From the NCBI GenBank assembly GCA_003833135.1, contig QZLH01000268.1, positions 38,226 through 78,887 on the forward strand: a stretch of 40,662 nt of DNA. Direction: 5' to 3'. The position numbers and the translations under genes were made by a program. The notes beneath the pieces were generated by a model. That model had not been told where the DNA came from and ran no database searches. It saw only the letters and a program-made list of their open reading frames with translations. Below are positions 341 through 37,624 of this stretch, piece by piece. Numbering within the stretch: position 1 is the first letter of the stretch; every line of letters starts with the position of its first letter. This stretch comes from Oehlia diaphana. Its lineage: Eukaryota > Glomeromycota > Glomeromycetes > Glomerales > Glomeraceae.

Positions 341-3300
341 ATGGCTCAGAGTAACGACGAAGGTAAAAGCACATAATATGAATATAGATATCTAATACAA
401 ATTGAATTGCTCTAAAAATTTTTTCAAACCAAATTTGCAACATAATGAAACTAGTTTCAAAAATAGAAAAATATAAATGTAAGAAAATTATTTTAACAGC
501 TTGTAAATTATAAACATATAATTTAAATTTTTTAAACTATTTCTAAAAATTATTTACTATATTAGCTCGTAAGTAATAGGTTATCTTATAATCGGAATGA
601 TAAATAAATTACTTATTTCTATTATTTTATATAACCAAATAATTTATTTTATTATTATAGTTGGTAAGTTAATAGGTATTTTTTTCATTGTATTTTGTAT
701 GATATTTACTATTAATATAATTGTTTAATAATTGGTATTAATATTAGTATATACTTAATTTTTATATACAATTATAATATTTTATCTAATTGATTATAAT
801 TACTTGACTTTATAATTATTGTTAATTAATAATTCTACAGGGTGTAAGTTATTTATTTAATCTATTATATTTATATAATATTTACATATACTTTAAACTA
901 ACTAAATTCATTATTTAAAACATTGTTTATACAATTATATAGGGAGTATGTTATTTAATTAATTCTATAATATTTAATATTATTTACATATAATTTAAAC
1001 TAACTAAATTCTTTATTTAAAAAATTATTTTGAAATTTCTTTTAGTTGGTAAGTTATAAGTTATTTATTTAATTCTATTGTATTTATATAATATTTACTC
1101 ATAATTTAAACTAACTAAATTCTTATTTAAAAATTATTTATTTAATAATGTAGAGAGTATGTTATTTATTTAATTCTATTATATTTATATAATACTTAAA
1201 ATAATTTAAACTAACTAAATTCTTTATTTAAAATTTATTTATTTAATAATGTAGGGAGTATGTTATTATTTAATTCTATTATATTTAAATAATATTTACA
1301 TATAATTTAAACTAACTAAATTCTTTATTTAAAATTTATTTTGTAATTTCTATTAGTTGGTAAGCTATAAGTTATTTATCTGATTCTATTATATTTATAT
1401 AATATTTACATATAATTTAACTAACTAAATTTTTTATCTAAAAATTATTCAAATAATTTAGATCGTAAATAATTCTATTATATTTATATAGTATTTACAT
1501 ATAATTTAAACTAACTAAATTCTTTATTTAAAAAATTATTTTGTATTTCTCTCAGCTGGTAAATTATAAGTTATTCATTTAATTCTATTATGTTTATATA
1601 ATATTTACATATAATTTAAATTCTTTATTTAAAAAATTATTCAAATTTTTTAGAACGTAAGTAATTCTATTATATTTAAATAATATTTACATATAATTTA
1701 AACTAACTAAATACTTTATTTAAAAAATTATTTTGTATTTCCTTTAGCTGGCAAGTTATAAGTTATTTATTTAATTCTATTATATTTAAATAATATTTAC
1801 ATATAATTTAAACTAACTAATTTCTTTATTTAAAAAATTATTCAAATATTTTAGAACGTAAGTAATTCTATTATATTTATATAATATTTACATATAATTT
1901 AAACTAACTAAATTCTTTATTTAATAAATTATTCAAATATTTTAGAATGTAAGTAATTCTGTTATTTTTATATAATATTTACATGTAATTTAAACTAACT
2001 AAATACTTTATTTAAAAAATTATTTTTGTATTTCTTTTAGTTGGTAAGTTATAAGTTATTTATTTAATTTTTATTATAATTATATAATAGTTACATTACT
2101 TACATATAATTTAAACCAACTAAATTTTTTATTTAAAAAATTATTCAAATAACTTAGATTGTGAGTAATTTTATTATAATATATAATATTTACATATATT
2201 TAAACTAATTAAAAAAAAATATTCAAATATTTTAGATCGTAAGTAATTCTATTATTTTTATATAATATTTACATATAATTTAAAATAATTAAATCTTTAT
2301 TTAAAAAATTATTCAAATTTTTAGATCGTAAGTAATTCTATTATATTTATATAATATTTACATATAATTTAAAATAATTAAATTCTTTATTTAAAAAATT
2401 ATTTATTTAATAATATAGGGAGTATGTTATTCATTAATTCTATTATATTTATATAATATTTGCATATAATATAAACTAACTAAAAAATTATTTAAATATT
2501 TAGATTGTAAGTAATTCTATTATATTTATATATAATTTAAACTAACTAAATTCTTTATTTAAAAAATTATTCAAATAATTTAGATCGTAAGTAATTCTAT
2601 TATATTTGTATAATATTTACATATAGTTTAAGCAACTAAATTCTTTATTTAAATAATTATTCAAATAATTTAGATCGTAAGTAATTCTATTATATTTATA
2701 TAATATTTACATATAATTTGAACTAACCAAATTCTTTATTTAAAAATTATTCAAATATTTTAGATTGTGAGTAATTCTATTATATTTACATATAATTTAA
2801 ACTAACTAAATTCTTTATTTAAAAATTATTTAAATATTTTAGATCGTAAGTAATTCTATTGTATCTATAGAATATTTACATATAATAAACTAACTAAATT
2901 CTTTATTTAAAAAATTATTTTGCAATTTCTTTTAGTTGGTAAGCTATAAGTTATTTATCTAATTCTATTATATTTATATAATATTTACATATAATTTAAA
3001 CTAACTAAATTCTTTATTTATTTAAAAAATAATTCAAATATTTTAGATTGTAAGTAATTCTATTATATTTATTATATTTATATACATATAATTTAAACTA
3101 ACTAAATTATTTAAAAAATCGTTTAAAATATTTTAGCCTGTAAGTATTGCATTATTTTAATTATAATAATCCTATATTTTTTATTTTTATCGCACCTGCG
3201 TTATGTCACACCTCTATAATATGTTACATATAAAAGTAAAAAATGACATTCTGATTAAGAAAACTTGTAGAACGGTCAAAATTTCACATAGTATAAGGTT

Positions 3301-5970
3301 TCTTATAGTTACAGTATAGTACATAGTAAGTGCATAAGGTCGATTTTTAAAAATGAAAATCTTAACGAAGTCATGTGATCAATATGATAATTACCAAAAA
3401 AGGGAGATGCGACATATCGCAGGCGCGAAAAAAAAATATTCCTTTTTTATATTATAATTATGTAATATTTACTTGATTATTTATTTTAGTTGGTAAGTTA
3501 TAAGTTATCATATACTATTTATTTTAATTATTTATTTATTATATTAAAATCTTATAATTCTATTTAGAGTAAGTATAATTAATATTATTTAATATTTTAA
3601 TTTTTAATTTTTATTTTAAATTTAATTTTTAATATAATTTTATATTTATATTTAAAGATTTGGTAATAGTGGAAATGAAGTTGTGGATCAATTTATTTCT
3701 AAAAATAAATTAAAATGGGTTCCTTATGATAAATTTGAAAATATTGAATATCTTGATAAAGGAGGATTTGGTACTATATATAAAGCTAAATATAATAGTA
3801 TTGAATTAATTTTTAAATATTTTGTTTATCTTAATAATTCTGATGAAAGTTTAAATGAATTTTTAAATGAAGTATGATTAAATATTATTATTTTTTTTAA
3901 TATTTTTATTTATTTATATTAATTAATTAAATATTATTTTTTTTATAGTGGAAAATTATTAATTCACGTGGAACTATTAGAATATATGGATTTACAAAAG
4001 ATCCAGATACATTGAATTATGTATTAATAATGGAGTATACAAATAAGGATAGTTTAAAAAGATGTTTAACAGAAATAACAAAAAATTGGGAACAAAAATT
4101 ATTTCATTTATATCAAATCATTGAGGGTCTTAATGATATTCATGAAAAAGATCTTATTCATTATAACTTTCATAATGGTAATATTTTATGTAACAAATAT
4201 GAAGAAGATATATATGGAATTTTTATTAGTGATTATTTAGGATTATATCAACTTGCAAAATCTTTTTTAAAAGAAAACAATATCTATGGAGTTTTACCAT
4301 TTATAGCACCTGAAATTTTAAGAGGTCAAATTTATACTCAAGCTAGTGATATATATAGTTTTTCTATAATTATGTGGGAATTTACATCTAAAATTCCACC
4401 ATTTAATGATAAAGCACATGATCTTCAACTTGCTTTAAGTATTTGTAAAGGTGAACGTCCTAAAATTATTGAAAATACTCCACAATGTTATATAGATTTA
4501 ATGAAAAAATGCTGGGATGAAGATCCATTAAAAAGGCCATCTTCTAAAGAAGTTTTAAATATCATTGAAAATTGGATTTTTAGTCCTGGGTATAAGAAAA
4601 TTAAAGATATTAATGAAGAATTAAAAAGCAATATTATGGAATTTATGAATGCACCAATTGAACATAATAATATTATTGTAAAATCTCATCCAAAAGCATG
4701 CTATACAAGTCATTTACTTGATTTTACCAGTGAAGAATTAAATGAAATTCTAGAGGATTCTCAAGGATTTTTTAAATTTTTGAAACAAAAATATCAAAGC
4801 TCTCAAAATGAGTTAGATTATCGCTCTACAAAACTGAAAATAAAATGGATTTCATATTCACAAATTAAAATTTTAAATAAAATAGCAGAAGGAGGATTTG
4901 GTATTATTTATAAAGCTTTAATTAATGGAGACGTTGTTGCTATAAAAAAAGTTTTAAATTCTCAAGAACTAAATAAAAATTTTTTAAATGAGGTAATTAT
5001 TTTTCAAAATTTGTTTTTTTGAAAATATTTAATATACTAATTTAAAGTATAAAATTTTAGTTAGAATCACTTTATCAATGTTATGATAGTAAATTTGAAC
5101 ATATTATTAAATGTCATGGTGTCACAAAAGATCCTATAACAAAAGAATTTATGTTTATAATGAAATATGCAAATGGAGGAGATTTACATAATTATTTACA
5201 AAAGAATTTTGCAGAGATTACATGGAAGAAAAAATTGCACATTTTGTGGCGAATTTCAGATGGGTATTTATAACTTAACATTAATTAATAATTATCTTAA
5301 AAATTATTTAAATAAAATTTTATTAATAATTAATTTTTTATTTAGACTTCAAACTATACATGAAAAAGATTTCGTACATCGAGATTTTCATAGTGGAAAT
5401 ATATTGGTTGAAATAATTGAAAATGATTCATGTAAAATAGATCAATATCTAATTGGAGATTTAGGATTATCACAGCCCGCAAATGACATTCTACATGATA
5501 GCAGTATATATGGAGTAGTACCTTATATTGCACCAGAAATATTTAAAGGCGTCAAATTTTCTAAATCATCTGATATTTATTGTATGGGCATGATTATGTG
5601 GGAATTAACAACTGGTTGTAAACCTTTTGCTAATGTTGAACATGATGCTGATTTAATTTATAAAATTATTGATGGGAAACGACCTAATATTACTTATGAC
5701 ACTCCCGAAGATTTTGCTAATTTAATGAAAAAATGTTGGAATCCTGATCCTAAAAAGAGACCTTCAGCAACGGGTGTTTGTGAAATTTTTAATTCTTGGT
5801 CAAATATGGGAATGGATGCCAAATGTTTTAATCAAGCTGAAGAAATAAGATTAGAATTAATGAAATTAAAAATGCTTGGACCAGATTTTAATGAAAAACC
5901 TCATCCAAATGCAATTTATACAAGTAGATTATTAAGTTCTTTAACTGGTTCACCTTCTATAACGTTTTAA
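341..5970 (+). CDS. Tandem protein kinase assembled from many single-codon microexons
   Basis: Proposed exons: 341-362; 29 exons of 3 nt between 500 and 3492; a 1-nt exon at 3568; 3658-3871; 3949-4992; 5061-5263; 5346-5970. They sum to 732 codons in one frame. Domain 1 (about residues 55-320) has a glycine loop LDKGGFGTIY, but HRD is changed to HYN and DLG is interrupted (SDYLGL), so it is probably a pseudokinase. It ends in APEIL and CWDEDPLKRP, then a family tail motif HPKACYTSHLL. Domain 2 has AEGGFGIIY, VVAIKK, HRDFHSGNIL, GDLGLS and APEIF, so it looks active, and ends with HPNAIYTSRLL. The exon at 3658 encodes GNSGNEVVDQF, like the WTSGN segment of related kinases; it has no in-frame ATG and a TAA closes its frame just upstream (3653-3655), so the start must come by splicing. 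Downstream exons are confident; the microexon joining is inferred from phase and splice sites. Confidence 0.68.
500..3492 (+). repeat. Tandem array of intron-like units, each separated by a 3-nt exon
   Basis: Units of about 75-115 bp, each beginning GTAAGT, GTATGT, GTGAGT or GTAAAT (once GCAAGT) and ending in YAG, mostly with CTAACTAA inside. Between YAG and the next donor lie exactly three bases: 500 CTT, 566 CTC, 661 TTG, 841 GGT, 943 GGA, 1046 TTG, 1154 AGA, 1255 GGA, 1357 TTG, 1462 ATC, 1556 CTG, 1654 AAC, 1748 CTG, 1855 AAC, 1946 AAT, 2041 TTG, 2158 ATT, 2236 ATC, 2325 ATC, 2419 GGA, 2504 ATT, 2584 ATC, 2674 ATC, 2764 ATT, 2843 ATC, 2936 TTG, 3047 ATT, 3137 CCT, 3490 TTG. Three unit types share a common core but differ near the triplet: TTG/CTG follow a TTTCTTTTAG-like end, ATY/AAY follow CAAATATTTTAG, and GGA/AGA follow ATAATGTAG. 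The first three and last two units are unlike the core, which suggests older or independently derived introns. Confidence 0.9.
3184..3434. mobile_element. TIR element (MITE-like) inside microexon intron 29
   Basis: Ends at 3184-3214 and 3404-3434 are inverted copies of each other, about 26 of 31 bases matching (outer parts TCGCACCTGCG and TCGCGCCTGCG, then TATGTC). The interior has no open frame. The insertion explains why this intron (3140-3489) is 350 nt while its neighbours are about 90 nt. I could not fix a target-site duplication because the flanks are poly-A/T. Confidence 0.65.
3568..3568 (+). other. Putative 1-nt exon
   Basis: The sequence ATTTAG, A, GTAAGT leaves a single base between a good acceptor (ending 3567) and a perfect donor (from 3569). 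The preceding exons all run in phase 1, while the kinase exon beginning at 3658 needs phase 2. This one base converts one to the other, giving GAA across three exons. Without it the frame reaches a stop inside the N-lobe exon. Confidence 0.5.
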
Positions 5971-10411: not shown

Positions 10412-11819
10412 TTAAGATAACAAATTAATTATTAAATCATTATAAATACTAAAATTCTGAAGAAAATCAAAAATACCTTCATCACTTTCTTCACTAATAT
10501 TGAAATTAAATGCTCTACTAGTATATATAGCATCAGAATTCTTTTCATATGAAGTTGAAATGTTTGGTATTTCTTTATCAGCTTCATCGAATGCAGCTTT
10601 AATTTCTTTTCCTTTATAACCAAATTCTTCTTTTTCACCCCTCTTGCCATCAATGGATTCACTCCAAAAATAAAATATATCTCCTAATTCTCTAGCTGTT
10701 GGTCTTTCATTTGGATTAGCGCTCATACATTTATAAGCTAATTTTTTATAAAATTCAGGAGTTCCTTTTCCGAACTCTGGTCTAAGACCATTAAAAATTG
10801 CTAATGCTAAACTTGAATTATGTCTTTCATTATAAAAAGGTGGTTTACCGGATGACAATTCAGCCATAACCATACCAACACTATAAATATCAGCAGATGA
10901 TGTATATGGTTCATTGTTAAAGAGTTCCGGAGCAATATATGGCATCACGCCATATACTTTATCATCTGATCTTTGCTTATTTGCTGGCCCAGATAACCCA
11001 AAATCTGAAATATAAGAGTTAATATTATTACTATTAGGTATATTTTCAATTTGTAAAATATTTCTACTATGAAAATCTTTATGAAAAAATCCTAATTCAT
11101 GTAAATAACCTAGATCTGCTAATAAATGATATAATAAAAAAATTTTGTCCTTCCACATAATATTGTTAAAATTATTTAAAAGACTACTTCTTAAATCCCC
11201 TTTATTAGCAAATCGTATAATCATCATAAATTCTTTAGTTTCTGGATCTTTAGTTAACCCATAAAGATTGAATCTACTTTTTTTAGATATAATCCAGTGT
11301 ATTTTAAGCTACATTTACAAATAAATTTTTAATGATTCCTATTTTAAATAAATAAAAAGATGAAAAAAATTAAATTGAAAATATTGAACATACCTCATTT
11401 AAATATTCTTCTGATATATTCTGCGATCCATTTAACTTTTTTAATGCTACTTTCATAGGTCTAGGCTCTTTTTTTTGCCAGATTCCACCATAAAAATTTA
11501 TACGATATTCTGATTTACCATCAACCCATATTGCAGAATAAACTTTGGCAAATCCACCTTCACCAATTTCTTCTACATCTATAAATTTATCAAATGGTAC
11601 CCATTCAAGAAATTGATTACCACATTGTGGTTTATACATTGTTTCTTTTATAAACTTATCAACATCAGGATTTCCACTAGTCCATCCTTCCATTATTTTA
11701 AATGGATCACATTCTTTACACCATAATTTTTCGGTAAAGGGTTTATTACAATACGGACAATTTTTATGATTGGAATTTTTACTATTTGAGATTTTTAATT
11801 TACTAAATTTGGTTCCCAT
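10412..11819 (-). CDS. Protein kinase with N-terminal zinc-ribbon-like segment
   Basis: Two exons, 11819-11394 and 11308-10412, joined in phase 0 across an 85-nt intron (donor GTATGT, acceptor TGTAG), giving 440 residues. The start is the ATG at 11819. Residues 20-37 hold a four-cysteine CPYC...WCKEC cluster, then GWTSGNPDVDKF, the family linker. The kinase has GEGGFAKVY (glycine loop), KVALKKL (ATP lysine), HKDFHSRNIL (catalytic loop, Asp kept, Arg of HRD replaced by Lys), SDFGLSGPAN (metal-binding DFG), YIAPEL and CMSANPNERP. It ends with the family tail SDAIYTSRAF. All key catalytic residues are present, so it is probably active, as a TKL-like Ser/Thr or dual-specificity kinase; the substrate is unknown. 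The intron position after LNE is shared with the other kinases in the window. Confidence 0.88.
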
Positions 11820-13014
11820 TTTAGATTATGTTGATTATTTTCGAAACATACTGGAATATTTTTCTTTTTTTTATTTTCTAAGTTCTAACCAATAGATAAC
11901 TTACTTTAACCAAAAGTAGAATTATAATTTTTTTTCGGACCATACTTTTTCCGATGCAAATGGTCAATTTTAACCAAATTTAGTAGAACTACGATTTTGG
12001 CTAGAATTAAAAAAATTTTAGCCAAATTGATTCAAAGTTCGTTGATTTTAACTGGTTAGATTAATTTTAAATTTTATTGAGCGGATTGGATTATTAATTT
12101 TTTGGTAGTACCATAATAGTAGTGTGATAATAAATGGATCGGGTTATTTACTAATATGATCAGTTGGCGTATCATTTAAATGATTTATATAGTAGTTGTT
12201 AAAATAGCATGAATAGCTTGGAGGGTTTTCTGCTTTTTGCATTTATATATTTTTTTTAAAGTGTGCTCTTTGAAGGAGAATATTGGTAAGAAAAAAAGAG
12301 GGTATAAAGCTTTGAAATTAATTTTTTTTGAAAATTTAAATGACAAAGTTTAATGAAATAAAGCCAATTTTATTCATTCAAAAATAAAGTAAAAAGTAGT
12401 GTTCGTATTGTTATAAATTATTCTGCCGCATTTTTTATGATAAAATAGATATTATAAATAAGATTATACGAAATTTCGATCTATTAGTTATGAGCACATG
12501 ATTTTATTTTATAATCAATTGCCAAAAGTGGAGTGTAAAAAATACTTATTAAGTTATTGTAAGAAAAGCAATTTACTTTTTACACTATTTGTCAGTTTTA
12601 AAGTTTGAAAATCAATTTCATAGATATATCTTGATAAATAATATTTAGAAAAAACTTAACATTGTTGTCTTTAGAGGAGTAGCTAATATTTTTTTTTATT
12701 ATAAGCGCCTAATTCCCCAAGATATTTTTAACGAACATCTTTTATCATATTATGTAAGCGACAGCGGAAGACTATTAAGGTACACTCAAGACCATGTCCA
12801 TGTTTATTACGCCGCGACTATGACTATTATATCAAATTATGACGTTAATATTATCGTTGATCATGTGAATATAAGGTCCGCATTAAAAATGATCATCATT
12901 TTTCTTTTTAGAAGGTATCTACTATCTACATCAATTATAAAAATAGATTCATTATCCCATTGTTTCTAAATTATACCTTTTCTTCTCCAAGAAAAAAAAA
13001 AAAATTTATATATC
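11820..13014. other. Divergent intergenic region
   Basis: Lies between the minus-strand kinase and the plus-strand BTB gene and must hold both promoters. I see repeated TTTTAACCA-like words near 11890-12070 and a poly-A tract just before the BTB ATG, but no gene and no convincing element. Confidence 0.5.
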
Positions 13015-14511
13015 ATGGCAGCACATTTTTTCGCGACACTCAGTCAAAATTATATTGAACTGTTAGAAGACGATGAATATTACGATACTACGATTGAAGT
13101 TGGTGAAGATCCTTATGTAAAAATATTCCGTACCCACATGAATATTTTATGTTATCGTTCTCCATATTTTCGAAAAGTTTTTGCTTCTAATAAAAAAAAG
13201 AATGATGGTACCTTGTCTCATATTAAATTTCCAAATATTTCACCAGATACATTTGAGATTATTTTAATGTAAGTTATGAAGAAATAAACTAAATATTTAA
13301 ATTACTTTTCGGATTTAATTTTTATAATTTTTTCATAATTTAGGTATATTTATGGTGGCATTCTTTCGTTTAATGAGCAAATTACTTCAGACATCCTTAA
13401 AGTATTGGTTGCTGCTGATCAACTCTGTCTTCGAGAGTTAGTTTATTATCTACAAAGTTATTTAATTGAAAATAAATCGGAATGGATAGTGCAAAATTTT
13501 GAACTTACTCATCGAATAAGTTTTCAATCTGATAATTTATTAGGAATTCAACAATTTTGTACAAATTTAATGGCTAAATCTCCCGAAAAAATATTTGGGT
13601 CATTTGATTTTACTTCATTTCCTGAACAATCGTTAATTAAACTTCTTAAAAGGGATAATTTACAAATGAAAGAAGTTGAAGTATGGGAACATGTATTGAA
13701 ATGGGGTCTTGCGCAAAATCCAACTATTATTCCAGATCCTGATACTTGGGCAGATAATGATTTTGATACAATGAAAAATACTTTACAAAATTGTCTACCT
13801 TTAATCAGATTTTATTGTTTATCGTCCAAAGAATTTGTACAAAAAGTTCGTCCATATAAAAAAATATTAAATCATCAACTTTATGAAGATTTAGTAAATT
13901 CTTTTATGGATCCTGATAATGAACCAAATGAAACCGTCTTACTCCCTAGAAATGTCAAAATCGATTCAGAGATTGTGGATTTAAGAATTGTTTCGGCTAT
14001 TTCAAGATGGATTGATAATAAGGTTATCGATAATAAATTCGCTTATATTAGAGATTTATATTTACCTTATGAATTTGAATTATTGTTAAGAGGAAGCCAG
14101 GATGGATTTACACCTAGAAAATTTCATGAATTATGTGACGGTATAGCTAATACTATAACATTTATTAAAATAAAGGGAACGAATGAGATTATTGGTGGAT
14201 ATAATCCATTAAAATGGGAATCTTCTGGTAAATGGGGATTCACAAGAGATAGTTTTATCTTTTCTTTCAATAATAATGATATCTTTTTTAAAGATGCAAT
14301 TGTTAGTAATGTAGAAAATAATGATTGTGCAGTATGGTTTGGCTATTTAGGTGGACCATGTTTTGGAGATGACATTGTCGTATATTCTTCCAATGAATTC
14401 GCAAATTATGATGATAACTATCATGAATGGAGACATTATGAAAAAAATATAAGAAAAGATGGTAAATTTGCTATTAAAGATTATGAAATATTTCGTATTA
14501 TTAAAAAATAG
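13015..14511 (+). CDS. BTB-BACK-TLDc domain protein
   Basis: Two exons, 13015-13268 and 13344-14511, joined through a split Met codon (AT|G; donor GTAAGT, acceptor TTTAG), giving 473 residues. Residues about 10-120 are a BTB/POZ fold (YYDTTIEVGEDPYVKIFRTH, YRSPYFRKVF, then YIYGG after the intron). A BACK-like region follows (LKRDNLQMKEVEVWEHVLKW, LIRFYCLSSKEFVQKVRPYK). Residues about 285-473 are a TLDc domain (LLLRGSQDGFTPRKFHELCD, IIGGYNPLKW, DCAVWFGYLGGPCFGDDI, DYEIFRI). BTB-BACK proteins usually act as Cullin-3 substrate adaptors; TLDc domains bind V-ATPase in some proteins. The actual role here is unknown. The frame is intact throughout. Two decayed relatives lie downstream (15.7 and 24.2 kb). 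Confidence 0.92.
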
Positions 14512-18801: not shown

Positions 18802-21800
18802 TTATTCATTTGTGTCATCTTTGATTAAAAATCTGTATAAAGAATTGATTTAGGATTAGATAAATCAATTATAATATTTATTAAAAATAAAAATTATAAG
18901 ATTTACCTTGTAAAATCAAAAATTTCTACTGTATTATTATCAATATTATCAAATTTTGGGATATTTTTTGTAAAAGGATTAAGTAACCGAGATTTATAAA
19001 TAGCTTGTGGATGAGCCAGAGCAGTACTTTCATCAAAAGAAGCAGGATGTGATCTTCTGTAATCTTCTGCTTCTTTGAATTGTTTTTTAATTTCATAATG
19101 TTGTTGTTCTTTTTCAAACCCCATAATTGCTTTAAATATAGATGCATCACACAAATATGAGTATATAAATAATCGAATTAATTTTTCAATTTCAGCTGCT
19201 TTTGGTCTATTATTCGGATTTGAATCCCAACACTGTTTCATTAATTCAATATAACATTTAGGTGCTTCTGGTACATTAATTTCAGGCCTAATTCCATTGC
19301 AGATATTTAATACTAAATACTCATCATGAGCATAATTGAAAAAGGGTTCTTTTCCAGTTGCCACAAAATACATAATCATACCAAAACTATATATATCTGC
19401 TGCTTGAGTATAAAGTTCCCCTTTTAATACTTCAGGAGATACATAAGGCATAACTCCATAAATATTACTTTGATTATTATTATTAACATCTCTGCATAAC
19501 CCCATATCTGAAATATATAACGTACCATTATTTACACTATTTGATAATATATTTCCTGTATGAAAATCACGGTGAACCATCTTTTTTTGATGAATTTTTT
19601 CAAGACCTTCAATAGTATAAAGTAACATGAACATTTTGTTCTCCCAGTCAAGGTTCCTATAATTTTTCTTTATCAAATTATTTAAATTTCCGCCTTTTGC
19701 ATAGTCAAGAACCATAATGAATTCTTTTGTATCTGGATTTTGAGATATTCCATATATTTTAAGTAATCCAATTACATTCGCAATTGAATATGATTTAACC
19801 TATTAAAGTATAAAAGAAAGTAGTTATTAAAAATATACAACTAAATTAAATTTACAGAAAAATCCGTACCTCATTAAGAAATTCACTTGTGATAAGTTGG
19901 GAATTATATAAACATTTTAATGCAACTTTTTTATCCTGATTTCTCACATATTTATGTTTTATTGTATTATATTGTAATGGGCCATCCTTCCATATTGCTA
20001 AATATACTTTAGCAAAACCACCTTCGCCTATTTCTTTAAAATTGGTAAACTGATTATATGGTACCCATTCAAATACTATGTCATCATAAGAATTAATTTT
20101 CGAATGCATTTCCTGAATTAAATTATTAATTATTTCATATTTACTGGTCCAGTTCATAGAACTTTTTCTTGATAAATCATTAATTTGACATGGTTTGCAC
20201 CATTTATAGATATTATCTGTAAATCTTTTACATTTTTCACAATAATATTTATTTGGAAAAATTATAATATAATCTCTTGTATTAGAATTTTGAGATATAC
20301 CACATATTTCATGTTTATTACTATTAACCTATTAAATAAAGATTATCATTATCATATTAAAGTATTAATTATTCAAGTATTTAATTTAAAAAGAAAATTT
20401 ATACCTCATTCAGAAATTCATCAGTAGTTATAATTTGCGAATTATATAATTTTAAATTGACTTTTGTACTCTTACTTCTCATATATTTATGTTCAAAAGA
20501 GTAATCATGCAACAATGGACCATCATTCCATATTGCTGAATATATTGTGGCAAATTCATCTTTTCCTAACTCTTTAATATCATTAAACTGATTATATGGT
20601 ATCCATTCAATTATAATATCATCATAATTTTTAATTTTTAATTGCTCTTCCTGAATTAAACTATCAATTTGTTCATTTCCACTGGTCCAATTTTTTTCTA
20701 AATCATTAATTTGACATGGTTTACACCATTTATGATATTCATTTGTAAATTTCTTACTACACTTATCACAATATACATCTTCAAGAACTAAAATATAATC
20801 TTTTGTTTCTGTATTTTGAGATATTCCATGTAAATACTTCCCATTAAAATATGTTTTAACCTATTAAAATATAAAGAAATTATTATTATTACACTTTACT
20901 AAATATTTATATATAGTGAAATAAATGCATACCTCATTTAGAAATTCATCAGTAATATTTTGAGAGTTATATAATTTTAAATTGACTTTTGTACTCCATT
21001 TTCTTGAGTATTCACGTTCCTTATTGTCATGTTTTAATGGACCATCCTTCCATATTGCTGAATACATTGTAGAAAATTCATCTTTTCCTAATTCTTTAAT
21101 ATAATTGAACTGATTATATGTTATCCATTCAACCATATTATCATAAGAGTTATTAATTTCTAATTGCATTTCCTGAATTAAATTATCAATTTTTTCATTT
21201 CCACTGGTCCAGTTTGTAAAATTATTTTTTAGATTATTTATCTGGCAAGGTTTACACCATTTAGAATATGGATCTAAATATTTACTAATACATTTATCAC
21301 AATATATGTTTTGAAGAATTATAATATAATCCTTATCAGGATTTTGAGATATTCCACATAGGTGATCATTTTCAAAATATGGCTTAACCTATTGAAACAT
21401 AAAATATTATTATAAAATAATTTATAAATTAAATTAAAAACATTCATACCTTATTCAGAAATTCACTGGTACTATTATGTGAGTTATATAATTTTAAATT
21501 GACTTTTATACTCTGTCTTCTTATAAATTCATATTTATTTCTATCATAATCTAATGGACCATCCTTCCATATTGCTAAATATATTGTAGCAAATTCATCT
21601 TTTCCTAACTCTTTAATATCATTAAACTGATCATATGGTATCCATTCAACTATAGTATCATAATAATCATTGATTTCTAATTGCATTTCCTGAATTGAAT
21701 TATCAATTTTTTCATTTCCGCTGGTCCAGTTTATAAAATTTTTTTCTAAATCATTTATCTGACATGATTTACACCATATTTGATATTCATTTATAAAACA

Positions 21801-22507
21801 TTTGCCACATTTATTACAATATTTATTTCGAAGAACTAAGATAAAATCTTTTGTGTCTGAATTTTGCGATATACCATGTAGATGATCACATGTCTTAACC
21901 TATCAAAATAAAAGAAATTCATTATTATATTTATAATTCTATTATTATGCAGCATATTAGGATCATGCCGATCTTGATGGACCGTTATTTTTACCAGTAA
22001 AAAGTGTGGGATAAAAATATTGATTATACACATTAATTATTTAAAAAATTATACTTTTTATATAAAAACTGTGGCCGATATTTTATCCCATCCAATAACT
22101 ATATTTAAAGTATTTAAATTAAATAGAATAATTCATACCTCATTTAGAAATTCATCAGTGATATTTTGAGAGTTGTTTAAACATTTTAAATTGATTCTTG
22201 TATCCTGGTTTCTTGAATAATCATATTTATTTTCGTCATATTCTAATGGACCATCCTTCCACATTGCCGAATAAATTGTAGAATATTCATCTTTATCTAA
22301 CTCTTTAATATCATTAAATTGATCATATGGTATCCACTCAATTATACTATCATCTCTGTTAAAAATTTTTAATTGTATTTCTTGAATTAAATTATCAATT
22401 TTTTCATTTCCACTGGTCCAATTTATAAAATTATTTTTTAGGTTATTTATCTGACATGATTTGCACCATTCAGAAGGTAAATACTTTCCACATCTTTCAC
22501 ATATCAT
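18802..22507 (-). CDS. Multi-module kinase A: five zinc-ribbon/N-lobe modules before one full kinase
   Basis: Exons on the minus strand: 22507-22139, 21899-21450, 21388-20933, 20860-20405, 20328-19870, 19799-18907, 18832-18802; 1,037 residues in one frame. Exons 1-5 each encode one module of about 150 residues: a GISQN segment (absent in exon 1), a CxxC...WCKxC zinc ribbon, NWTSGNE, EWIPYDQF, and a kinase N-lobe ending EFLNE. Introns 1-5 are all phase 0 at the same place. In modules 1-4 the glycine loop is degraded (for example LGKDEFATIY). Module 5 keeps GEGGFAKVY and KKVALK, and exon 6 supplies the rest of a kinase: HRDFHTGNIL, SDMGLC (Phe of DFG replaced by Met), YVSPEVL, CWDSNPNNRP, HPQAIYKSRLL. 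The last exon gives FLIKDDTNE. The start is the first in-frame ATG; no ribosome-side evidence is available. Probably one active kinase carrying four non-catalytic N-lobes. Confidence 0.85.
22002..22093. mobile_element. Small inverted-repeat insertion in intron 1 of gene A
   Basis: Intron 1 (21900-22138) is 239 nt, while the matching intron in copy B is 84 nt. The extra sequence is bounded by GTGGGATAAAAATAT and its near-inverse ATATTTTATCCCA, suggesting a short foldback element. The exact ends are uncertain. Confidence 0.45.
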
Positions 22508-28024: not shown

Positions 28025-31000
28025 TATTCATTATTTGTATCATCTTTAATTGATAATCTGTATAAAGGATTGATTTTAGGTTAAATAAAATTCAATTATA
28101 ATATTAATCAAAAATAAAAAATTATAAGACTTACTTTGTAAAATCAAAAATTTCTACTGTATTATTTTCAATGTTATCAAATTTTGGGATATTTTTCGTA
28201 AAAGGATTAAGTAACCGAGACTCATATACAGCTTGTGGATGAGCCAGAGTGGTGCTTTCATTAAAAGAAGTAGGATGTGATCTTCTGTATTCTTCTGCTT
28301 CTTTGAATTGTTTTTCAATTTCATAATGTTGTTGTTCTTTCTCAGATTTCATAATTATTTTAAAGTCCATCCTATCATAAAAATATGAATTATGAAATAA
28401 ATCAATTAATTCAGAAATTTCAGCTGCTTTTGGTCTATTATTCGAATTTGAATCCCAACACTGTTTCATCAAATCAATATAGCATTCTGGTACTTCCGAC
28501 ACATTAATGTCAGGTCTATTTCCATTACAAATATTCAGTATTAAAAGCTCATCATGCGCATAATTGACAAAAGGTTGTTTCCCTGTTGCAACAAAATACA
28601 TAATCATACCAAAACTATATATATCTGCTGCTTGAGTATAAGTTTCTCCTTTTAACACTTCAGGGGCTACATAGGGAATAACTCCATAAATATTATTTTG
28701 GTTAGTATTACTAACATCTCCACATAATCCCATATCTGAAATATGTATTGTATTATGATATGTAAATCCTGAGTTAAATTGGCTAAATAGTATATTTCCT
28801 GTATGAAAATCACGGTGAACAAACTTTTTTTGATGAATTTCTTCAAGGCCCTTACTAATATCATAAAGTACATCTAATTTTTTTTTCCATCCAAAATTGT
28901 TATAATTTTTATTCATCCAATAATTAAAATTTCCACCTTTTGCATAGTCAAAAACTATGATGTATTCCTTTGTATCTGGATTTTGAGATATTCCATATAT
29001 TTTAAGTATTTTACTACCATTATAACTAAAACAATCATTAATTGAATATAATTTGACCTATTAAAATATGTAAAAAAAAATTATTATATCAACAATATAT
29101 AATTAAGATTAATTGCAGAAAAATCCTATACCTCATTCAGAAATTCACTTGTGACATTTTGGGAGTTATATAAACATTTTAAAGCAATAATACCTTTATA
29201 ATGATTTCTCATATATTTATGTTTTATTGTATTATAGTATAATGGACCATCCTTCCATATTGCTGAATGCACTTTAGCAAAACCACCTTTACCTATTTCT
29301 TTAATATTGATAAACTGGTTGTATGGTATCCATTCAAATACTATATCATTATAAGAATTAATTTTTGAATGCATTTCTTGAATTAAATTATTAATTAATT
29401 CATTTCCACTGGTCCAGCTTATAGAATTTTTTCTTGATAAATCATTAATTCGACATAGTTTGCACCATTCATAGAAATTGTCTGCAAATTTTTTACATTC
29501 TTCACAATAATAACTTTCTGAAAAAACTATGACAAAACCTTTTGTGTAAGGATCTTGAGATATTCCACATAAATTATTATCATCAAAATATGCCTTAATC
29601 TATTAAGATACAAAACTTTTATTATTAAGTCTAAAATAATTTACAATTTAAAAAGAAATTTATACCTCATTTAGAAGTTTATCAGTTATATTTTGCGAAT
29701 TATATGATTTTAAATTGACTTTTACACTCTTCATCCTTGTATGTTTATGTTCATAAAAATTATAAATCAATGGACCATCATTCCATATTGCTGAATATAT
29801 TGTAGCAAATTCACTTTTTCCTAACTCTATAATATAATTAAACTGATCATATGGTATCCATTCAACTATAGTACAAAATATAGTATTGATTTTTACTTGC
29901 ATTTCTCGAATTAAATTATCAATTTTTTCATTTTTGCTGGTCCAATTTGTAAGACCATTTATTTGACATTGTTTGCACCATATACTAGATTCATCTGTAA
30001 ATTTCTTACCACAATTATCACAATATACATTTTGAAGAACTAAAATATAATCTTTTGTTTCTAAATTTTGGGATATTCCAATTAAATTATTATCGTTAAA
30101 ACATGTCTTAGCCTATTAAATTATAAAAAAAATGTTATTATTACACTTCATTACTAAATGTTTATTAATAGAAATATTTATACCTCAATTAGATATTCAT
30201 TGGTAATAATACTTTGAGAGTTGTGTAAACATTTTAAATTGGCTTTCATATTCTGTTTTCTCATATACGCATCTTTATCTAAATCATATTTTAATGGACC
30301 ATCCTTCCATATTGCCGAATATATTGTGGAGCATTCATCTTTTTCTAACTCTTTAATATCACTAAACTGATCATATGGTATCCATTCAACTATAATTTCA
30401 TGCGATCTATTAATTTTTAATTGCATTTCCTGAATTAAATTATCAATTTCTTCATTTCCGCTGGTCCAATTTATGAAATTTTTTTCTAAATCATTGATAT
30501 GACATGATTTACACCATTCATCATACATGTTTTTACCACATTTATTGCAATAAAATAACGTGTCTTGAAGTATTATTATATAATTTTTTGTACAAGGATT
30601 TTGAGATATTCCATGTAAATAATAAACATGATCATCAAAATATACCTTAATCTATTAAGATAAAAATTTATTATTAAATCTAAAATAATTTATAAATTAA
30701 ATTAGAGAAATTCATACCTTATTCAAAAGTTCATTAATATTTTGTGAGTTATATAATTTTAAATTGACTTTTGTACTTTGTTCTCTTGCAAATTCATCTT
30801 TATTTCTATCATATTTTAATGGACCATCCTTCCATATTGCTGAATATATTGTAGAAAATTCATCTTTTTCTAACTCTTTAATATCATTAAACTGATCATA
30901 TGGTATCCATTCAACTCTAGTATCATCCCATCCATTAATTTTTAATTGCATTTCTTGAATTAAATTATCAATTTCTTCATTTCCGCTGGTCTAATTTATG

Positions 31001-35626: not shown

Positions 35627-37624
35627 ATGGTTCTAGAAACTGGAGTAATTGCATGGATTTCATCATTCTTTTCGGCCGCTGCATGTAACCTTGGTTTTAG
35701 GTCATACCATTGCAGTAATTCTATAGCGACAAGAATTGTTTATGCAGTACGTAAAACAACAAGCTAAAATATACTTATTGTTATTATTATTATTAAGAAT
35801 ATATTTAACATAATATCATAAAATTTAGATAATCCTTTTATTGAATTCAATTGTAAGTAATATTTCATCATATATAAAGTATATTATATATTACTTCTGA
35901 TAACGTTATTAATTTTATAATAATGATAGCTTGCATGGGTAATGATGTCTGATTGGGTTGTTAAAAAACTTGAAAAAAAAACACATAATAATTTACACTT
36001 AAATTGTCCAGAAGGAAGTTGTTTTGGAGTTTTGACGGTAAAATCAATTTGATCAATAAATTTTTTTTTAAATTTCATAATTTTATTTTAAATAACGCTC
36101 ATGTGATGTATTGATTTAGGTTCATCGAGTTTGTTTTGCGCTTTCATTATTACATTTTATCTTGGGAATTTTAGTTATTGGAGTTAAAGATATTCGTAAT
36201 CCTAGGTCAACAATTCAAAATGGGTAAGTGTTAGTTAAAAATCATATTCGTTTCTTAACAAATATATTACTTATCATCCTTTATGTAGATGGTGGGGACC
36301 TAAAATATTTTTCTGGATAGGCTTTATAATCGGATCATTCTTTATTCCAAATGAATTTTTTATGGCCTGGGGAAATTATATTGCGTTAGTCGGAGCTGCA
36401 TTATTTATTCTTGTCGGTTTAATTCTCTTGGTAGATTTTGCACATACATGGAGTGAAAAATGTATGGACAAAGATGATCAATCTAAAGATAATAAATGGA
36501 AAGTAATTCTTGTTGGGTCAACACTTTTGATGTTCGCTGGTGCGATTGCGATGACATCAATAGTATACGTATTTTTTGCCAAATCAGGATGTTCACTTAA
36601 TCAATTTTTTGTTACATTGAATTCCATATTATGTGTCATTGGAACTTTATTATGTATACATCCAAAAATTCAAGAAGGAAATCCTCGTTCAGGGTTACCA
36701 CAAGCATCGATGGTAGTAATTTATTGTGCTTATTTAATATTAAGTGCAGTGGCAAATGAACCTAAAACTGAAACTAATAGTGAAAAAGTTGCATCACATT
36801 ATATGTGTAATCCATTATCTTCACATAAAACACGTAAAACATCAATTATTATTGGGGCTTTATTCACCTTTATTGCCATTGCTTATTCAACTTCAAGAGC
36901 TGCGAGTCAAGGAAGATTATTATTAACAAGTAGTTCTTCCACTAAGGATTATAAATATCGCCGTGTCAATAATGATGATATTTCCGATATGATTCCTTTG
37001 ACGAGTAACGAGCCCAAAGATATACCATCACTACCGACATCAAAAAATTATTCTCAAATAACCATGGATTCCGTTCAAAAAGGGTAAATAAATTGACCGA
37101 TTATTTTATTTTATTTTTTTTTTATTAGCGTGATTTTTTGATATTATTTTGTTATTTTTATTAGAATACTTCCTCCATCAGCCTTGGACGAAGAAGCGGA
37201 TTATCCTATAGATGATGAAGACTATGATGTTAATTATAATTATACATTTTTCCATTTTATATTTGCAATTGCTGCCATGTATGTTGCTATGTTATTAACG
37301 GACTGGTAAGTTGACGCTATTATTTTAAATATAATTTTTTTTTTAAGAAAGTTATATAATAACCACTTTTTTTTTAGGAACACTTTTACAATGACAGGAA
37401 ATGAGAAATTAGTCGTTATTGGTCGAAGTCATACAATTGTTTGGGTTAAGGTTATCTCAGGATGGGTTTGCTTTTTATTATACTATTGGTCCTTGGTCGC
37501 ACCTGCTTTATTTCCTGAAAGATTTGCCGTAAGTATATTTTATTTTGCGCTATACTGTACGTTATAGGATTACGCTATATTAAAAAATTATTTATTTTTT
37601 TTTTTTTAGGATTATTATTTATAA
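35627..37624 (+). CDS. TMS1: SERINC/TMS1-family membrane protein
   Basis: Eight exons: 35627-35746, 35829-35852, 35930-36037, 36120-36223, 36289-37083, 37165-37305, 37378-37528, 37610-37624; 485 residues, a normal length for the family. Recognisable landmarks in order: RIVYAIILLLNSILAWVMMS across exons 1-3, CPEGSCFGVLTVHRVCFALS across exons 3-4, GVKDIRNPRSTIQNGWWGPK across exons 4-5, SFFIPNEFFMAWGNYIALVG, LVDFAHTWSEKC, and near the end FTFMT-like NTFTMTG and a C-terminal PERFA then DYYL. About ten hydrophobic segments indicate a multipass protein. Family members sit in endomembranes or plasma membrane; early reports assigned serine incorporation into lipids, later work points to lipid scrambling. 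Exon 2 is only 24 nt. The loop between residues about 305 and 390 is hydrophilic and family-variable. Confidence 0.95.

Follow-up and report, generated by a model that had tools for sequence, protein, structure and literature searches.

Can the 5′ end of a gene be assembled from a long run of exons of one codon each, and are all of these exons joined to one another in the mRNA? The question is raised by a kinase gene at the start of the window, by which we mean the whole stretch of DNA analysed (40 662 nt). The original prediction held that 29 consecutive three-base exons precede the kinase exons, that all of them are spliced and that each adds one residue. In the present analysis the splice signals of the window were parsed, related arrays were collected from the same genome and in-frame stop codons were counted at the junctions between triplets. 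We consider it highly probable that the 29 triplets and an additional one-base exon are spliced serially into the kinase mRNA as predicted single-codon exons.

Structure of the window gene

The predicted order of the gene is exon 1, 29 triplets (500–3490), an A at position 3568 and four kinase exons (Table 1). Splicing in silico gave a coding sequence of 2196 nt, corresponding to 731 residues without an internal stop. All 29 units with acceptor and donor three bases apart were found again in the splice-site parse. Each has a YAG acceptor; the donor is GT in 28 units and GC in one (GCAAGT after 1748). The chain given in the original prediction, ASLGWIERIDPEPEQ...YHHYLDSFEF, was reproduced and under the predicted splicing enters GNSGNEVVDQF in frame and free of stops. 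The two other ways of reading the triplets also behaved as had been described, with six stops in the third phase (28-triplet parse) and none when the triplets are taken as codons of their own. The proposal that every triplet is spliced and contributes one residue gains support from the stop test on paralogues described below, but the chain needs an extra exon of 1 nt. Similarly, the junction total of 88 nt was obtained again, but it had silently included the one-base exon at 3568, as had the 'SFEF' at the end of the chain.

A homologue of the 22 nt exon 1 is present in 19 of the 29 parsed loci and carries the ATG in 18 of these 19; the window exon itself has 12 genome matches at three or fewer mismatches. 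The intron at 3140–3489 is 350 nt long because a 259 bp dispersed repeat (3182–3440) lies inside it. The 48 nt arms of the repeat are 73% complementary and it has 42 matches in the genome. The intron has thus gained a large insertion and the exon spacing has stayed intact. A TAG-TAA-GTGCAT sequence at 3327 agrees with the simple spacing pattern too but was not counted as a unit, as its splice score is −5.8 and it lies inside the dispersed repeat.

Table 1. Predicted exons of the kinase gene and the repeat within its longest array intron (window coordinates)
Feature	Position	Strand	Basis
Exon 1, 22 nt, MAQSNDE + 1 nt (G), ends in phase 1	341–362	+	
Single-codon exon CTT	500–502	+	splice-site parse
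Single-codon exon CTC	566–568	+	splice-site parse
Single-codon exon TTG	661–663	+	splice-site parse
Single-codon exon GGT	841–843	+	splice-site parse
Single-codon exon GGA	943–945	+	splice-site parse
Single-codon exon TTG	1046–1048	+	splice-site parse
Single-codon exon AGA	1154–1156	+	splice-site parse
Single-codon exon GGA	1255–1257	+	splice-site parse
Single-codon exon TTG	1357–1359	+	splice-site parse
Single-codon exon ATC	1462–1464	+	splice-site parse
Single-codon exon CTG	1556–1558	+	splice-site parse
Single-codon exon AAC	1654–1656	+	splice-site parse
Single-codon exon CTG, GC donor (GCAAGT)	1748–1750	+	splice-site parse
Single-codon exon AAC	1855–1857	+	splice-site parse
Single-codon exon AAT	1946–1948	+	splice-site parse
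Single-codon exon TTG	2041–2043	+	splice-site parse
Single-codon exon ATT	2158–2160	+	splice-site parse
Single-codon exon ATC	2236–2238	+	splice-site parse
Single-codon exon ATC	2325–2327	+	splice-site parse
Single-codon exon GGA	2419–2421	+	splice-site parse
Single-codon exon ATT	2504–2506	+	splice-site parse
Single-codon exon ATC	2584–2586	+	splice-site parse
Single-codon exon ATC	2674–2676	+	splice-site parse
Single-codon exon ATT	2764–2766	+	splice-site parse
Single-codon exon ATC	2843–2845	+	splice-site parse
Single-codon exon TTG	2936–2938	+	splice-site parse
Single-codon exon ATT	3047–3049	+	splice-site parse
Single-codon exon CCT	3137–3139	+	splice-site parse
Dispersed repeat, 259 bp, degenerate inverted arms, inside intron 3140–3489	3182–3440	n/a	
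Single-codon exon TTG, last of 29	3490–3492	+	splice-site parse
One-base exon A, sets phase for the kinase exon	3568	+	recurs in paralogues
Kinase exon A (FGNSGNEVVDQF...), first kinase domain begins	3658–3871	+	Pfam
Kinase exon B	3949–4992	+	Pfam
Kinase exon C, second kinase domain	5061–5263	+	Pfam
Last kinase exon, TAA stop at end	5346–5970	+	Pfam

Paralogous arrays

The genome (108.8 Mb in 1672 contigs) was searched for further arrays, and all paralogues come from this one genome. Unit DNA gave 398 matches, which among the matches listed fall on at least 35 contigs (an approximate count). Each of the 33 stretches that were fetched (L009–L041) contains an array with 3 nt spacing, some of them cut by gaps or by contig or stretch ends. 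The main parse, performed by splice signals, covered 29 loci including the window and yielded 747 triplets; L039–L041 were added afterwards, giving a total of 32 parsed arrays. L023, in which no recognisable kinase exon follows the array, and L027, which has neither exon 1 nor a terminal one-base exon, were excluded before stops were counted; their triplets gave 0/6 and 0/15 stops, respectively, the latter with a gap. In L023 (3094–3700) the 3 nt exons AAC, GGC and AGG precede a coiled-coil-like frame and not a kinase, and an N gap lies upstream.

Both ends are present in 14 arrays, which hold 15–52 triplets. The shortest, with 15, is that of L013; the other 13, all with an ATG, hold 23–52. 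L013 is decayed, with AAT in place of the exon 1 ATG and one neighbour-junction stop in its chain. Arrays often start with CTT CTC TTG AAA ATT GGT and end with CCT or CTT, TTG and one base; these ends are conserved, and the middle differs among paralogues in the number and the content of its units. The parser was instructed to seek an exon of a single base upstream of the kinase exon, and one scoring at least 9.7 was returned in 24 of the 24 parsed loci whose stretch includes the kinase exon. The base is A in 21 loci and G in two; in L037 it was parsed as T, though an A 22 bases earlier fits. Part of the kinase family is decaying, as is evident from stops inside the kinase exon of L015 and L021 and from the broken frame of L016.

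Exon length and splice signals

For a count without an assumed exon length, it was recorded for each strong donor how far upstream the nearest AG lies. In the window array this distance is exactly 3 nt for 24 of 27 strong donors. Two have the AG at 1 nt, namely those of an AGA triplet and of the one-base exon, and one, inside the dispersed repeat (3326), has it at 6 nt. Strong donors with the AG at 3 nt numbered 316 of 350 over 11 paralogous arrays. A further 29 have it at 1 nt (19 triplets that begin with AG after another AG, nine one-base exons and one stray) and five at other distances, two of these being triplets that end in AG. In the same count for control hexamers, 3 nt was absent from the eight commonest distances. 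A parser that left exon length free between 0 and 15 nt and had been trained on the window alone returned 390 exons in 12 loci, comprising 365 of 3 nt, eight of 1 nt and 17 of 6–15 nt. On inspection, the exons of 6–15 nt were attributable to AAG acceptors and to misplaced or skipped units. Because these longer exons were artefactual, the parser was retrained on pooled units with the interior exon length fixed at 3 nt, and the claim of a constant length therefore rests on the donor–AG distances and the free-length parser. The lengths of array introns are distributed evenly modulo 3 (245, 227 and 220 of 692). A fixed length is kept by the exons but not by the introns, and the sequences of the triplets are highly variable.

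Donors of the parsed units are close to GTAAGT, with positions +3 to +6 at 91–97%. Acceptors are TTTTAG-like, with T before the AG in 91% of units. A CTAAY branch-point motif occurs in 516 of the 692 array introns of ordinary length, compared with 144 in shuffled introns, at a median of 37 nt from the acceptor. These donor, branch-point and acceptor signals, taken with the even intron lengths modulo 3, point to intron-by-intron recognition and stepwise removal. Each intron of ∼90 nt would be recognised singly (intron definition) through its GTAAGT donor, CTAAC-like branch point and TTTTAG-like acceptor. As a 3 nt exon can probably not accommodate two spliceosomes at once, the introns would leave one after another, and with every splice the exon bearing the next donor would become longer. 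Arrays would gain or lose units by tandem copying of blocks of triplet plus intron; since all units are 3 nt long and in phase 1, such a gain or loss would keep the frame and add or remove one residue per unit, unless the new junction forms a stop. Translation would place before the kinase a highly variable segment, 23–52 residues long in the 13 complete arrays that have an ATG, and in this expanded kinase family the segment would likely form a surface for binding or recognition.

Stop codons at triplet junctions

In the proposed phase a codon consists of the last base of one triplet and the first two bases of the next, and an in-frame stop therefore depends on which triplets are neighbours. 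Expected numbers of stops were obtained by shuffling the order of triplets within each gene, using a parse that fixes exon length but ignores stops. Over all 29 loci a single stop was found at 718 neighbour junctions, in L013. The 28 loci without L013 have 0/704, against a shuffled mean of 30.6 (minimum 16 in 5000 shuffles). Junctions that skip one triplet gave 28/676 stops in the same loci (29.3 expected), and those that skip two gave 37/648, above the expectation of 28.0. As duplicated blocks make units non-independent and can inflate such counts, each distinct ordered pair was also counted once; stops then occur in 0/330 neighbour pairs and in 21/338 skip pairs. L039–L041 were selected through their kinase exon, among rows that the listing of the array search did not contain. 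Arrays were found in all three, with stops at none of 72 junctions (3.07 expected; 321 of 20 000 shuffles reach 0). For the 31 arrays without L013, neighbour stops are 0/776 against 33.6 expected, and skip-one stops are 31/745 against 32.3, which is the chance rate.

The value of zero depends somewhat on the score cut. At cuts of 4, 6, 8 and 10 (28 loci) the stops are 1/697, 1/695, 2/688 and 3/675, respectively, where ∼30 are expected, and those at the stricter cuts fall in L032, L035 and L020. An earlier, stricter parse of 12 loci, in which weak units were dropped, had two stops (L013 and L020) against 14.0 expected; the one in L020 disappeared with the later, looser cut, when a dropped TTG unit re-entered. 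A few stops are to be expected at stricter cuts because the loss of a real unit creates a skip junction. With neighbour junctions free, or nearly free, of stops and skip junctions at the chance rate, the paralogue sequences strongly support the view that selection acts on translated mRNAs in which every triplet is joined to the adjacent one.

Stop-like triplets are themselves present in the arrays: TGA in L031 (score 22.1), L027 and L041, and TAG in L013 (20.5). The TGA triplets are not stops in the proposed phase, and the occurrence of TGA and TAG triplets within arrays speaks against a reading in which the triplets are codons of their own. Two TAA units of L032 (scores −0.8 and −0.7), which are among the 747, are doubtful and were dropped as evidence.

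The same counts bear on the main alternative to full inclusion, namely that the triplets are alternatively spliced with many of them skipped, so that one gene gives many in-frame N-termini, as for the nank genes of truffles. Any subset of triplets keeps the frame (3 nt, phase 1), only 28 of the 676 possible single skips would create a stop, and published passages on Tuber melanosporum report alternative splicing of codon-sized microexons. Against this, stops occur at skip junctions at the chance rate and at neighbour junctions not at all or nearly so. Most single skips stay open, yet protection for regular skipping is not apparent in the sequences. Because skip junctions are unprotected from stops, full inclusion would be the main product under selection, and widespread skipping is possible but rather doubtful.

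Variation and origin of the units

In 72 independent closest pairs of units, 2.4% of sites are different in the intron flanks, compared with 36% in the triplets. Triplets between two matching whole introns follow the same trend and are far more divergent than the introns. What stays constant is the exon length and the open frame; the identity of the triplets is highly variable. Single triplet differences in 54 contexts (27 pairs, both ways) changed the residue in 45, kept it in seven and gave a stop in two, compared with 76% changed, 18% same and 6% stop for random change; diversifying selection on the chain residues was not demonstrated by this comparison (45 of 54 against 76%). The likeness of the introns may be maintained by gene conversion. 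The kinase part has a low fourfold synonymous divergence, however, so homogenisation of introns is inseparable from slow drift. In kinase exon B, the 12 of 153 pairs that are lowest at fourfold sites differ at 13–38% of residues and at 4–7% of fourfold sites (43–60 sites per pair), a pattern for which positive selection, codon bias or conversion is possible. Across the 31 loci the chains add up to 776 residues. R, N, D, F, L, W and Y are abundant among them (6% are W), and the chain is plausible as a candidate binding segment.

The greater divergence of triplets than of flanks would also suit an origin, distinct from the question of splicing, in which the introns are mobile introner-like copies that entered an older, ordinary exon between its codons. 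We regard this origin as improbable. Array lengths range from 15 to 52 and it is mainly the chain ends that are common to paralogues, multi-unit periods recur in the window array, runs of neighbouring introns match within and between arrays, and the unit-DNA matches, among those listed, cluster in arrays.

Kinase part and deposited proteins

Pfam searches of the window protein returned PK_Tyr_Ser-Thr (263 bits) and Pkinase, in two stretches each, together with a weak ABC1 match; neither NACHT nor ANK, the domains of the nank family, gave a Pfam match in this protein. The best protein matches are from R. irregularis and R. diaphanus. A Rhizophagus diaphanus 'kinase-like domain-containing protein' (P0002) is 98% identical over 66% of the query, which makes R. 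diaphanus, a root-symbiotic fungus, the most likely source of the window; the model of P0002 begins at an internal Met (MWEFTSK) and omits eight residues that are kept in the new model. The R. irregularis relative P0001 begins MEYTNK, and both models start downstream of the array and stop short of it. Among the best 120 listed relatives of the window protein, 23 have the start motif of kinase exon A, and 11 of these 23 start at most nine residues from it (e.g. MIYRF, MSKFG and MFSRFG). Such starts are circumstantial evidence that annotation programs have missed the 5′ exons.

One deposited protein reaches further upstream. P0042 from R. irregularis begins MALNNDKVSGNIEFEGSS, with an exon-1-like MALNNDK start. 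The segment after MALNNDK has a counterpart in L020, where an open stretch past exon 1 and ahead of the first triplet encodes SGNIEFEGSS, with TT on its upstream side and a donor on its downstream side; the match supports exon 1 and its phase. The stretch belongs to what is probably an additional exon of L020 (∼1714–1809), which encodes the near-repeats EFEGSS and EFKGSD. For the chain of L014, the one chain searched, no database protein was found that shares three five-residue words.

That the deposited gene models examined omit the array agrees with a reading of the array as a single long intron or 5′ leader filled with repeats, with the triplets discarded and the gene starting elsewhere, and tandem repeats are common in AT-rich introns. 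We consider this very unlikely. In all 14 loci that have both exons, a direct join of exon 1 and the kinase exon runs into a stop (within 26 codons in 13 of them), so an array removed as one intron would not yield the protein; the 3 nt spacing, the one-base exon and the avoidance of neighbour stops would also be left unexplained. It is scarcely credible that the units are recursive-splicing (ratchet) points at which a long intron is removed stepwise and the triplets are discarded, since ratchet points, which close acceptor–donor pairs resemble, have zero bases between acceptor and donor where 3 nt are found here, and avoidance of stops in a single phase would not be expected of bases that are thrown away. 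Serial splicing of single-codon exons is the reading retained below.

Three further open frames with kinase domains lie on the minus strand of the window (10412–11305, 18906–19799 and 28134–29057). Short open frames near them (11373–11825, whose zinc-ribbon match falls short of the curated cut-off, 21447–21899 and 30181–30651) may be parts of repeated genes. On the plus strand, an open frame at 13339–14508 has TLDc and BACK domains and one at 36239–37084 has a Serinc domain.

Comparison with known systems

The original prediction knew of no precedent for such runs of exons, a view that does not hold in the light of Tuber melanosporum. Short passages in three papers ascribe to its nank (NACHT-ANK) genes 'tens of' codon-sized exons (PMC3689799), multiple codon-sized microexons (PMC4986451) and 3 bp microexons (PMC10197012), and all three credit these to Iotti et al. 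(2012). As outlined in these passages, the nank genes resemble the present family in their many codon-sized exons and in forming an expanded, fast-changing fungal family thought to serve recognition. Tens of 3 nt exons are likewise found here (29 in the window and 15–52 in the 14 complete arrays), their inclusion being predicted. The differences are that nank genes are described there as ascomycete NLR-type genes with reported alternative splicing, whereas the window gene is a glomeromycete tandem kinase; in addition, the arrays of its family end in a one-base exon and their sequences favour full inclusion rather than skipping.

One-base exons with transcript support are described for Arabidopsis APC11 (PMC4674806) and Fusarium CYP621A (PMC12940212). 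There, as at 3568, the single base sets the phase; in those accounts the exons stand alone in conserved genes, whereas the putative exon here ends a run of three-base exons and recurs in 24 loci. Aphid bicycle genes have ∼17 exons on average, almost all internal ones in phase 2, according to a passage in PMC9168663. These genes and the schistosome micro-exon genes are similar to the present family in having many small exons and in belonging to expanded, fast-diverging families. The interior array exons here are in phase 1, unlike those of bicycle genes. Schistosome micro-exon genes have symmetric exons of at least 6 nt, compared with 3 nt here.

An expansion of tyrosine-kinase-like genes is noted for R. 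irregularis (PMC4219462). From its Pfam domain and close matches, the kinase part of the window gene most likely belongs to this Rhizophagus kinase-like expansion; the passages of that paper dealing with the expansion do not mention single-codon 5′ exons. Among the listings of a literature search, no mention of exons of one codon came up for Rhizophagus or Glomeromycota. The window family would thus be a second case of codon-sized exon runs in fungi, in another phylum and another protein class than the truffle genes. If RNA data confirm it, such runs have at least two origins in fungi, in protein classes that are not related, and both cases (truffle and Rhizophagus) sit in expanded families of plant symbionts. 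The array would also be a natural test of how the spliceosome deals with dozens of 3 nt exons and one of 1 nt in each transcript.

We tentatively suggest, as a speculation, that the cassette of single-codon exons might be the sensor part of dozens of receptor-like kinases, diversified among paralogues by the gain and loss of units and by changes of triplets, always in frame, and with a combinatorial repertoire made from one gene by selective skipping of its single-codon exons. If so, a fungal recognition system would have evolved in parallel to the NLR case of truffles. The predicted single-codon layout would let kinase proteins change one amino acid at a time. If the predicted gene structure is true, the 5′ ends of one class of Rhizophagus kinases are probably absent from current annotation, and with them what could be the region that varies most and reveals most about function.
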